A stretch of 21,798 nt of DNA from a virus, in IMG/VR virus record IMGVR_UViG_3300025138_000432, positions 1-21,798 of that record. One strand, 5' to 3'. Each line of letters opens with the position of its first letter. Positions within the stretch are counted from its first letter, which is position 1. Below, piece by piece: positions 3-7,202 of this stretch. The position numbers and the translations under genes were made by a program. The notes beneath the pieces are model-generated. The model ran no database searches. It saw only the letters and a list, made by a program, of their open reading frames with translations, and was not told the origin of the DNA.

Positions 3-122
3 AAAACTATGAACAACGAGATTGTTCGTATTGATGTAAAGATGTGTCAAGCATTTGGCATTGCACCTGACTTAGACCGTATTGCACGAGCTGATGGTCA
101 GAAAGATGCGAGGAAAGATTAA
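3..122 (+). CDS. Small hypothetical protein, possibly cut by the window edge
   Basis: An open frame runs from the window edge to a TAA at 120-122. The first ATG is at 9, giving 37 residues (MNNEIVRIDVKM... ending in KDARKD). The frame stays open upstream of that ATG, so this may be either a complete mini-protein or the C-terminus of a longer one. The product is hydrophilic, with an acidic/basic tail and no recognisable domain. Its stop overlaps the next start (TAATG at 120-124), the sign of translational coupling with the holin-like gene, which suggests a shared transcript and perhaps a shared stage of infection. I do not recognise the family. The ribosome binding site lies outside the window. 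Confidence 0.5.
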   Translation, partial: KTMNNEIVRIDVKMCQAFGIAPDLDRIARADGQKDARKD

Positions 123-382
123 TGGAAACAGCAGTAGAACTAGACATTGGTGCTTTAATTGGTCAATATGGATTCCCAATTATCGCCGCAATCGGACTAG
201 GTTACTTTATCTATTACATATGGCAATGGGTTACTGAAGAAGTAGACCCAGTTGTACACGAAAGTCATATGACTCTCATTGCACTTATAGATAGGATTAG
301 AATGTTAGATAACGATTTGATTCGTCTGAACGCTAAACTTGATATGGTTATTCAACAACAAAAGGATAACAAAAAGAAATAG
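122..382 (+). CDS. Holin-like small membrane protein (one helix plus coiled coil)
   Basis: 86 residues. A short acidic N-terminus is followed by one strong membrane helix (about residues 17-37, rich in Ile, Gly and aromatics). A charged amphipathic segment (about 45-80) with Leu/Ile heptad-like spacing ends in a Lys-rich tail (DNKKK). This layout matches small phage holin-like proteins of the BhlA/UviB type, which form or gate pores in the inner membrane at lysis. Membrane topology and length are seen directly; the holin role is inference because such short families share little sequence. The start is fixed by a TAATG overlap with the upstream frame. No endolysin gene is visible in the window. 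It could instead be a phage membrane protein unrelated to lysis. Confidence 0.55.
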   Translation: METAVELDIGALIGQYGFPIIAAIGLGYFIYYIWQWVTEEVDPVVHESHMTLIALIDRIRMLDNDLIRLNAKLDMVIQQQKDNKKK

Positions 383-384
383 GG

Positions 385-540
385 TGGCAGAAGTTGACGA
401 ACAAAGTTTAAGGGTGCACCTTCATTGTCAATCAACTCATAGTCAAGCAAATAAGGATATACTCAACTAATTTATAGTCTTACCGAGGACTACTAGGGTT
501 TCTGTTCATATGATTTACCGGTCCCTAGATTTCGAGAGAT
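385..540 (-). ncRNA. Candidate small RNA behind an orphan promoter
   Basis: A perfect TTGACA-N17-TATAAT promoter at 547-575 predicts a leftward transcript starting near 540. No credible reading frame lies behind it before it would run antisense into the holin-like gene (frames of 9 codons or fewer). The predicted RNA would contain a CTAGGG/CCCTAG stem near its 5' end and the long 392-437 hairpin near its 3' end. The 3' boundary given here is a guess at the end of that hairpin; if transcription continues, the RNA would be antisense to the holin-like gene. Promoter and hairpins are seen; the RNA itself is inference. I recognise no known RNA family. Confidence 0.25.
392..437. repeat. Long imperfect inverted repeat just after the holin-like gene
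   Basis: AGTTGAC at 392-398 and its surroundings pair with the segment ending TCAACT at 437. About 13 of the first 15 positions pair, counting two G-U pairs. A second short stem (AAGG/CCTT) then sits around a small GGTGCACC-containing loop. As RNA this would be a strong hairpin on either strand. No U-tract follows directly on either side, so it is not a textbook intrinsic terminator. It could be an RNase processing site, a 3'-end stabiliser, or the 3' part of the minus-strand RNA proposed here. Confidence 0.5.
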
Positions 541-546
541 AATTCT

Positions 547-575
547 ATTATACACTACTCAACATTAAATGTCAA
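547..575 (-). promoter_or_regulatory. Consensus sigma70-type promoter, minus strand
   Basis: Reading the minus strand, TTGACA (570-575) is followed by a 17-base spacer and TATAAT (547-552), both exact consensus boxes. The bases next to the -10 box (TAGTGTATAAT) match those in the promoters at 2411 and 3033. The predicted start is near 540. It lies just past the ferredoxin stop, so it would not drive that gene. Confidence 0.75.
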
Positions 576-587
576 GCTTTATATTTA

Positions 588-1017
<430 letters not shown>

Positions 1018-3514: not shown

Positions 3515-3762
3515 TATTTCCTACTCCTTTTAGTTATTTTTTGAGTCTTGACTTGTTTTTGAGTGTGATTTCCGTTATTAACTGACTTTTTTGAGTCATC
3601 AAGTAGTTTTATTGTCTTTTTTTCGCCATAGATTACAACAAAACAGTCTAAAATCAAGTTAAAGCAAATGGAAATGACTTTTTCTAAGGATTTTGGATAT
3701 TTTTCAAATATTCGTATTAAATCGTTCTCAATATCCTTCTTAGATATTCGCTTATTATTCAT
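3514..3762 (-). CDS. Hypothetical protein, 82 aa, possibly read from a leaderless message
   Basis: 82 residues: a basic/acidic N-terminal helix (KDIENDLIRIFEKYPKSLEK), a hydrophobic stretch (VISICFNLILDCFVVIYG, residues about 30-47) that could be a buried helix or a membrane segment, and a Lys/Gln-rich tail ending KITKRSRK. The ATG at 3762 is only 7 bases past the -10 box at 3770-3775, so the message would begin at or within a base or two of the start codon. No internal ATG offers an alternative. Family not recognised. Its stop overlaps the start of the 126-residue gene (TAATG). Confidence 0.6.
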   Translation of the reverse strand: MNNKRISKKDIENDLIRIFEKYPKSLEKVISICFNLILDCFVVIYGEKKTIKLLDDSKKSVNNGNHTQKQVKTQKITKRSRK

Positions 3763-3769
3763 ACTAGGT

Positions 3770-3798
3770 ATTATACGTTATATTGAATAGTTTGTCAA
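3770..3798 (-). promoter_or_regulatory. Consensus sigma70-type promoter, minus strand
   Basis: TTGACA (3793-3798), 17-base spacer, TATAAT (3770-3775), both exact consensus. Predicted start near 3763, immediately before the ATG at 3762. It lies back to back with the late promoter at 3809. Confidence 0.75.
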
Positions 3799-5324: not shown

Positions 5325-7202
5325 ATGGCAACTAAATTAGAAATTTCAGAATTAGACTTTGATGGTATTAAAAGTAACCTCAAAACATTTTTATCACAAC
5401 AGAACGAATTTACAGACTACGACTTCGAAGGTTCGGGTATGTCAGTACTTCTTGATACACTAGCATATAATACACACTACCTGGCATATAACGCCAATAT
5501 GTTAGCAAACGAAATGTATCTTGATAGTGCAGATTTGCGTTCTAGTGTTGTATCACTTGCAAAACAAGTTGGTTATACACCAACAAGTTGTACAGCCGCA
5601 ACTGCGACAGTTAATGTTCTTGTGAATGACGCTACTGGCGCTTCTCTAACAATGTCAAGAGGAACTAAATTTACAGCAACAATTGATGGACAGTCATACA
5701 ATTTTGTCAACAATGCTGATGTAAGTATTTCGCCAGCCTCTGGTGTTTATCAATTTAGTAATCTAGTTATTACTGAGGGTTCTTATTTAAATTTTAAATA
5801 CACAGCAAACACATCTGATACTGACCAACGATTCATAATACCAAATGATAATGTTGATACAACTACATTGACTGTTAAGGTTCAAGAATCATCTTCAGAC
5901 TCAACAACAAAGACTTATAAATTGGCAGACGGTATTACAGGAGTTGATGACTCATCTGAAGTATACTTTTTACAAGAAGTAGAAGGTGGTCGTTTTGAAG
6001 TCTTCTTTGGCGATGGTGTTATAGGCAAAGCAATTGCTGATGGTAATATTGTTATCTTTGATTACATCAATACAAACAGAGATGCGCCGAACGGTGCTAC
6101 TTCATTTACTCTATCAGGCACAATCGGCGGTTTTACATCTGCAACGGTTACAACAGTCAGTAACGCCTCAGGCGGAACTGGACTTGAATCAATCAATTCA
6201 ATTAAATTTAATGCTCCAAGAGATTATTCTGCACAAGACAGGGCTGTTACTTCTGAAGATTATAAAACACTCGTTAAGAGTTTATATGCAAACGCTCAAT
6301 CAGTTCAAGTTTATGGCGGTGAAGATGCGGCTATTCCTGATTACGGAAAAGTTTATATTTCTATTAAGGCAAAATCTGGCTCAAATCTAACAGTTGCAAC
6401 AAAAGAAAGTTTAGTGTCAAGTCTTAAATCATATGCTGTTGCTTCAGTAACTCCTGTAATTATCGACCCTGAAACAACTTTCATTACACTTACTGTTAAT
6501 TTTAGATATAATTCTGGCGCAACAACAAAAGATGTATCTACACTACAAACAAATGTTCTTACAAAGATTATAGATTACAACAATAACACACTAAATGATT
6601 TCGCTGGCATGTTTAGATACTCACAAATACTTGAAGATATTAATAATGCAGACACATCTATTTTAAGTAATATTACAACTGTAAAGATGTACAAGTTAAT
6701 AACACCAACTCTTAGTTCGGCGTTAAAGTACACTCTTTCTTTTAATAATGCATTGTACAATCCACACTCTGGACACAATATGACAGGCGGCGGTATTATT
6801 TCTTCAACAGGATTTAAAATCAATGATGACGATTCGACTAACGAACATTTCTTAGATGATAATGGTTCAGGTATTTTAAGAGTTTACTATCTAAGTGGTA
6901 CTGCAAGAGTTTACACAGACTCAACTTATGGTACTGTTGATTATGCAACAGGTGAGGCCATTCTTACATCTGCAAATATAACATCTATTTCTAATGTCGA
7001 TGGTGCAACAAGTACAACAATTAGAGTTTTTGCTACACCAAGTTCTAATGATGTTGTACCTGTAAGAAATCAAGTACTATCTATTGACACAGCTAATTCA
7101 ACAATCACTGGCGAAGTTGATGGAATTATAAGTGGTAGTTCGGCTGCAGGAACAACTTATACGACTACAAGTAGTTATTCTAGTGGTGGTTCTACCTACT
7201 AA
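5325..7202 (+). CDS. 6: Baseplate wedge protein gp6
   Basis: 625 residues (T4 gp6 about 660). The N-terminal third carries the gp6/baseplate J-like helical segment: FDGIKSNLKTFLSQQ, DYDFEGSGMSVLLDTLAYNT, then YNANMLANEMYLDSA. A beta-rich middle (about 90-300) follows. The RDYSAQDRAVTSEDYKTLVK segment near 295-315 and the DPETTFITLTVNFRYN stretch are typical of the gp6 C-terminal half. In T4, gp6 dimers form the iris-like inner ring that joins neighbouring wedges and drives the baseplate conformational change. The Ser/Thr/Gly-rich end (about 590-625) looks like an extension beyond the core fold. It follows gp25 by 3 bases; the next gene starts 12 bases after its stop. Confidence 0.9.
   Translation: MATKLEISELDFDGIKSNLKTFLSQQNEFTDYDFEGSGMSVLLDTLAYNTHYLAYNANMLANEMYLDSADLRSSVVSLAKQVGYTPTSCTAATATVNVLVNDATGASLTMSRGTKFTATIDGQSYNFVNNADVSISPASGVYQFSNLVITEGSYLNFKYTANTSDTDQRFIIPNDNVDTTTLTVKVQESSSDSTTKTYKLADGITGVDDSSEVYFLQEVEGGRFEVFFGDGVIGKAIADGNIVIFDYINTNRDAPNGATSFTLSGTIGGFTSATVTTVSNASGGTGLESINSIKFNAPRDYSAQDRAVTSEDYKTLVKSLYANAQSVQVYGGEDAAIPDYGKVYISIKAKSGSNLTVATKESLVSSLKSYAVASVTPVIIDPETTFITLTVNFRYNSGATTKDVSTLQTNVLTKIIDYNNNTLNDFAGMFRYSQILEDINNADTSILSNITTVKMYKLITPTLSSALKYTLSFNNALYNPHSGHNMTGGGIISSTGFKINDDDSTNEHFLDDNGSGILRVYYLSGTARVYTDSTYGTVDYATGEAILTSANITSISNVDGATSTTIRVFATPSSNDVVPVRNQVLSIDTANSTITGEVDGIISGSSAAGTTYTTTSSYSSGGSTY

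Follow-up and report, generated by a model that had tools for sequence, protein, structure and literature searches.

A previously unlisted structured RNA family confined to a small set of related marine T4-type phages, some of which have an early promoter dedicated to it

What does a perfect bacterial promoter transcribe when no gene lies behind it? The question is raised by a sigma70-type promoter on the minus strand of the phage sequence analysed here (hereafter the window, meaning the whole stretch of 21,798 bases, to which unprefixed coordinates refer). An earlier note on this DNA had described the promoter as exact and as lacking a credible frame downstream, and both descriptions are accurate: TTGACA-N17-TATAAT is present without a mismatch, and no minus-strand open reading frame (ORF) of at least 40 aa starts in 383-546. 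The window holds two exact copies of this promoter against 0.02 expected, and two sites occurred in 0 of 100 shuffles; across 120 kb of contigs bearing the RNA described below there are 22 exact N17 promoters against about 0.1 expected, and none with N16 or N18 spacing. The second exact site in the window (3770-3798, minus strand) opens a minus-strand operon, and an ATG follows its -10 element at a distance of exactly 7 bases. A credible same-strand gene follows every exact N17 site except those that face the RNA, which are found in the window, in L149 (the same as L001), and in L064; in L145, L144, and L153 we read the start by eye, as an ATG lying 6-7 bases beyond the -10 element, since the ORF finder begins those ORFs upstream. 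At the promoter without a gene, transcription is expected to start near 540, 7 bases beyond the -10 element, as at other promoters in these phages. An ATG stands exactly 7 bases past TATAAT in the window (3762-3798, minus strand), L149 (368 and 6196), L146 (1053), and L147 (2747), and mRNAs from such promoters would be leaderless. Early-promoter spacers in the RNA-bearing contigs are N17 only and often end in ...TAGTG ahead of TATAAT, hinting at an extended promoter consensus.

The interval behind the promoter is conserved. Among relatives gathered by flanking proteins and core patterns, the same intergenic element is carried by 12 distinct IMG/VR contigs and by L166, a contig in a Pelagibacter metagenome-assembled genome (MAG). 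The earlier note had held that an interval not conserved in homologous phages, or occupied there by a real gene, would speak against an RNA; the element is conserved, and the proposal survives. Three different core patterns gave essentially the same set of contigs, and a covariance model of the element (R1) scores 150-188 bits in all members and finds nothing credible in relatives without the RNA or elsewhere in the sequences searched, so the family is narrow and sharply bounded. The RNA-bearing set is small, about a dozen related contigs. Five relatives that share an operon gene (L185-L188 and L196) lack the RNA in the sequence available for them, and matches of 12 and 9 bits in L179 and L177 are at chance level.

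The baseplate wedge protein of the window (5325-7199) is 56% and 55% identical to those of the Pelagibacter phages Mosig and HTVC008M, 53% to that of the Methylophilales phage Melnitz, and about 40% to those of cyanophages; these values place the window, a genome fragment, among marine T4-type phages like HTVC008M and Melnitz. The binning of L166 with an uncultured Ca. Pelagibacter is only a hint of the host. R1 finds no convincing or significant match in the complete HTVC008M and Melnitz-1 genomes. The further suggestion that the RNA mimics a host RNA fares poorly, since Rfam offers nothing relevant at E <= 10, 297 Pelagibacterales genomes contain no significant host homologue (only the phage contig, from one MAG, and a single chance match), and a pattern search of 84,980 genomes led only to a phage contig; structural mimicry of a host RNA without sequence similarity is compatible with these results. 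Among the 20 pattern matches in the larger search, 19 were due to chance and the one real match was the same Pelagibacter-MAG phage contig. The chance match in the Pelagibacterales genomes (L201, 17.4 bits) was rejected, as it lies antisense inside a NAD-kinase-like gene.

The proposal that the promoter makes a phage small RNA is borne out: the strand read by the promoter bears a structure that is conserved and covaries. In an alignment of thirteen homologues made from sequence only (A1), RNAalifold recovers four main helices, the same as those counted for covariation. They comprise 31 pairs with 98.8% of cells paired, and pairing falls to 23-47% when the partner strand is slid along the alignment. 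Changes on both sides are seen in 9 pairs, against 5.9 in shuffles (reached by 6 of 500), and double-changed cells number 30, against 9.6 (reached by 0 of 500), although these counts overstate the independent events because the shuffles keep relatedness and several copies are at least 90% alike (mean identity 82%). The clearest covariation is the exchange of CUAGGG/CCCUAG for CUUGGG/CCCAAG in P1, of A-U for C-G in P2, and of five pairs in P4; by our reading, the changes in these three helices appear to split the sequences into at least two groups. P1 and P2 have one covarying pair apiece, and their pairing probability is low in several sequences. The consensus helices lie at most about 3 kcal/mol above the minimum free energy in every sequence. 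Folded alone, the window copy has an unremarkable energy (z about -1.5), so the evidence for structure is the covariation. The helix cells also point to a strand: 360 are Watson-Crick, 38 are G-U, and none is A-C, and the opposite strand would carry 38 A-C mismatches, which argues that the minus strand is transcribed, in the direction of the promoter. Judged from sequence comparison, a conserved structured RNA read from the minus strand is very probable.

Table 1. Features of the promoter and RNA locus in the window
Feature	Position	Strand	Sequence or basis
Small membrane-protein-like gene, convergent	122-382	+	holin label weak
Structured noncoding RNA, about 158 nt	383-540	-	5' end placed from promoter, 3' end from conservation
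Conserved C-rich tail	383-390	-	CUGCCACC (sister clade CUGCCCCC); alignment
P4 3' arm	391-403	-	covariation
Apical palindrome of P4	413-420	-	GGUGCACC; other copies GAAGCUUC, also palindromic; alignment
P4 5' arm, 13 columns	426-438	-	both-sided changes in 5 columns
P3 3' arm	440-445	-	UGACUA; covariation count and pairing probability
P3 5' arm	464-469	-	UAGUUG; pairing probability 1.0 in window sequence
P2 3' arm	476-479	-	GACU; covariation
L2, 8-nt loop	480-487	-	CUCGGUAA; 7 of 8 columns invariant
P2 5' arm	488-491	-	AGUC (sister clade CGUC); A-U to C-G covariation with 476
P1 3' arm	493-498	-	CCCUAG; covariation
L1, 24-nt loop	499-522	-	ACCGGUAAAUCAUAUGAACAGAAA; 20 of 24 columns invariant
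P1 5' arm	523-528	-	CUAGGG; CUAGGG/CCCUAG covaries to CUUGGG/CCCAAG
Sigma70-type early promoter	547-575	-	TTGACA TTTAATGTTGAGTAGTG TATAAT; 0 mismatches, spacer N17
4Fe-4S ferredoxin-like gene	588-854	-	Fer4_7, 3.1e-9

Against the window, R1 aligns to 382-538 on the minus strand with 159.7 bits. From 5' to 3' the RNA consists of a short variable lead, AAAUC, the hairpins P1/L1 and P2/L2, an A-rich joiner, P3 with a variable loop, P4, and a C-rich tail (Table 1). The two inverted repeats reported earlier correspond to P3 and P4, both supported by covariation; P1 and P2, which make up the 5' half, had been missed and are visible only by comparison. Conservation peaks in L1, L2, and the P1/P2 helices while L3 drifts freely, a pattern from which we infer a contact surface carried on a scaffold. 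The CGGU of L2 could pair with the ACCG of L1, both segments being invariant. The apical 8-mer of P4 is palindromic in both allele types (GGTGCACC and GAAGCTTC) and would permit loop-loop dimers. No intrinsic terminator is called after P4, and no U-run stands directly behind it. The RNA holds no conserved protein frame, only a short frame, MNRYPS(R/S)PR, in L1/P2 (about 480-512 in the window, minus strand), whose start ATG is shared by 13 of 14 copies.

The RNA belongs to no known family that we could find. No family in Rfam 15 reaches its gathering score, and the sole match at E <= 10, to RsaE (13.6 bits against a cut-off of 79, E 7), is attributable to chance. A likeness to helix 24 of 16S rRNA (GAUACCCUAGUAGUCC) was discarded, as it is broken in the sister clade (GAUACCCAAGUCGUCC), the pairing differs, and no small-subunit rRNA model matches at E <= 10. 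ARAGORN and the Rfam tmRNA models at E <= 10 reveal no tRNA-like domain. When the region was compared with the phage collection by blastn, AT-rich matches on the promoter side were the only ones, with no cyanophages among the matches listed; no cultured phage with the RNA turned up in that collection, and we found no report of the ~158-nt RNA in the literature. According to a 2010 review, functional characterisation had not been achieved for any small trans-acting RNA of T4, the roles of rnaC and rnaD being unknown (PMC3014915), and an earlier search of pelagimyophages, for riboswitches only, found none (PMC7029224).

Several structured phage RNAs offer precedents. T4 rnaC (species 1) and rnaD (species 2) are likewise small RNAs of a T4-type phage, stable and 139 and 119 nt long (AF158101), but they lie within a tRNA cluster, and comparison with the unfiltered covariance model gave nothing significant (the best match, overlapping rnaD, reaches 4.8 bits, E 0.42). 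CfrI of cyanophage S-PM2, about 225 nt long and of unknown function, is also an RNA of a marine T4-like phage (PMC2984593); it is antisense to psbA and a homing endonuclease gene, whereas the window RNA is tied to no single antisense partner, a distinction that we draw from the description of CfrI. The two-piece tmRNA of Melnitz, with its glutamine riboswitch, is another structured RNA, from a related marine phage, and closely follows an early promoter (PMC9004378), but the window RNA has no tRNA-like domain, no tag frame, and no tmRNA or glnA match. The RNA is thus a structured phage RNA like these precedents, and by the comparisons made it stands outside the families of rnaC/rnaD and the Melnitz tmRNA.

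A further precedent suggests a different reading of the locus, as one of the mobile regulatory cassettes of T4-like phages called PeSLs, whose early promoter and stem-loop would serve as an island of homology for module exchange. The promoter and stem-loop of the window follow the layout that PMC4503421, our source for these cassettes, names PeSL, and like PeSLs they lie among shuffled genes: those flanking the RNA on both sides change between relatives. However, PeSLs pair an early promoter with a stem-loop terminator and recur in several copies, whereas the window RNA is single-copy per contig, lacks a promoter in most phages, shows no U-run directly behind P4, and is a covarying RNA of several helices; DNA homology would need neither compensatory changes nor G-U pairs confined to one strand. 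We regard a PeSL cassette as improbable.

The genes around the RNA bear on whether it acts on a neighbour. In most relatives the RNA lies no more than a few tens of bases behind the counterpart of window gene 854-1018; the ferredoxin-like gene sits between the two in the window, L001, and L003 and is absent in most relatives. Few RNA-bearing phages have the ferredoxin-like gene, which has relatives at 52-99% identity in 63 viral loci. For an upstream 70-aa protein (L066, 1045-1257) a fold of three helices is predicted (pLDDT 73, single-sequence input), which is uninformative. On the other side of the RNA, most copies face a convergent gene of the 122-382 type. The earlier note called this gene holin-like; it is a small membrane-protein-like gene for which the holin label is weak: the top family, at E = 3e-29, is phrog_18771, which has no assigned function, phrog_4898, which carries the label, matches at E = 0.0076, and Pfam gives no match. 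In L144 and L150 the RNA instead faces a convergent carbamoyltransferase-like gene, and in L066 and L151 it lies about 30-50 bases ahead of a codirectional oxygenase-like ORF, both names being read from sequence. L064, L147, L148, and L166 have porin-like and glutamine-synthetase-like genes near the RNA locus, and in several of them an exact early promoter precedes the porin-like gene by about 128 bases.

Two further explanations make the RNA a regulator of what lies next to it. An RNA that brakes the convergent lysis gene by acting antisense to it, as the earlier note suggested, would suit the convergent layout in the window, where any transcript that continued beyond 383 would overlap 122-382; however, the conserved RNA stops at the gene end, the partner gene differs between relatives (L144 and L150 among them), and the lysis role of 122-382 is itself doubtful. 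The RNA keeps its upstream link while its downstream neighbour varies, so what has been conserved cannot be antisense action on a single gene, and we give this explanation hardly any credence. The oxygenase-like ORF of L066 and L151 and the shared ATG of the short frame could instead indicate a cis-acting leader (a riboswitch or attenuator) or an encoded peptide. Most copies, however, have no codirectional gene behind them and no riboswitch family matches at E <= 10, while the frame spans 9-28 codons without a fixed end, is lost in L003, and changes in step with base pairing; a leader or peptide is very improbable.

The promoter is less constant than the RNA. An exact promoter precedes the RNA in the window, L001, and L064, where its spacer is unrelated and it lies 25 bases farther from the RNA, and the remaining copies have no near-consensus promoter nearby. 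L003, of the ferredoxin lineage, has lost the promoter and is the sole copy with a damaged L1 (L003, about 1270-1340), which fits, but does not prove, decay once expression was lost. The constant is the RNA itself, at the end of a minus-strand operon of small genes, with a varying gene beyond. Since most homologues lack the promoter, they probably make the RNA by read-through, in which case it may start as a 3'-UTR RNA, and independent expression is not general.

This arrangement could also mean that the element is only the structured 3' end of an early operon mRNA, acting in cis as a decay block, a processing mark, or a stop between convergent units. The RNA does lie directly behind the last minus-strand gene and between convergent genes in most copies, usually without its own promoter, and P4 is a strong helix close to the 3' end. 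Yet P4 has no direct U-run and no terminator is called, a decay block does not need a near-invariant 24-nt loop, three phages place a separate perfect promoter ahead of the RNA, and in L066 and L151 the RNA precedes a codirectional gene. We consider a purely cis-acting 3' end unlikely.

We favor, with a probability of roughly 0.6, the reading that the RNA is free-standing and acts in trans, as these sequences suggest. Host RNA polymerase would transcribe it early in infection as a structured RNA of about 158 nt, from its own promoter in the ferredoxin lineage (window and L001) and in L064, and elsewhere by read-through from an operon promoter about 2.4 kb upstream. P3 and P4 would form the scaffold, and the near-invariant loops of hairpins P1 and P2 (L1 and L2) would provide the contact surface, whose partner is more likely to be a protein than a single antisense RNA. 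More tentatively, and with considerable doubt, it may represent a new class of phage RNA in early takeover that binds a host or phage protein through L1/L2, possibly dimerising through kissing loops (by way of GGUGCACC or GAAGCUUC) or switching between two states, with the GGG of P1 paired to the CCC of either P1 or the tail.

Small structured RNAs have long been a gap in the knowledge of T4-type phages, and the locus described here adds a previously unlisted structured RNA family, restricted to a narrow group of marine T4-type phages and equipped in some with a dedicated early promoter. With a covariance model ready, a defined locus, and a perfect promoter of its own in some phages, its expression and partner are directly testable. 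More generally, an early promoter with no protein gene behind it can be the sign of an RNA gene.
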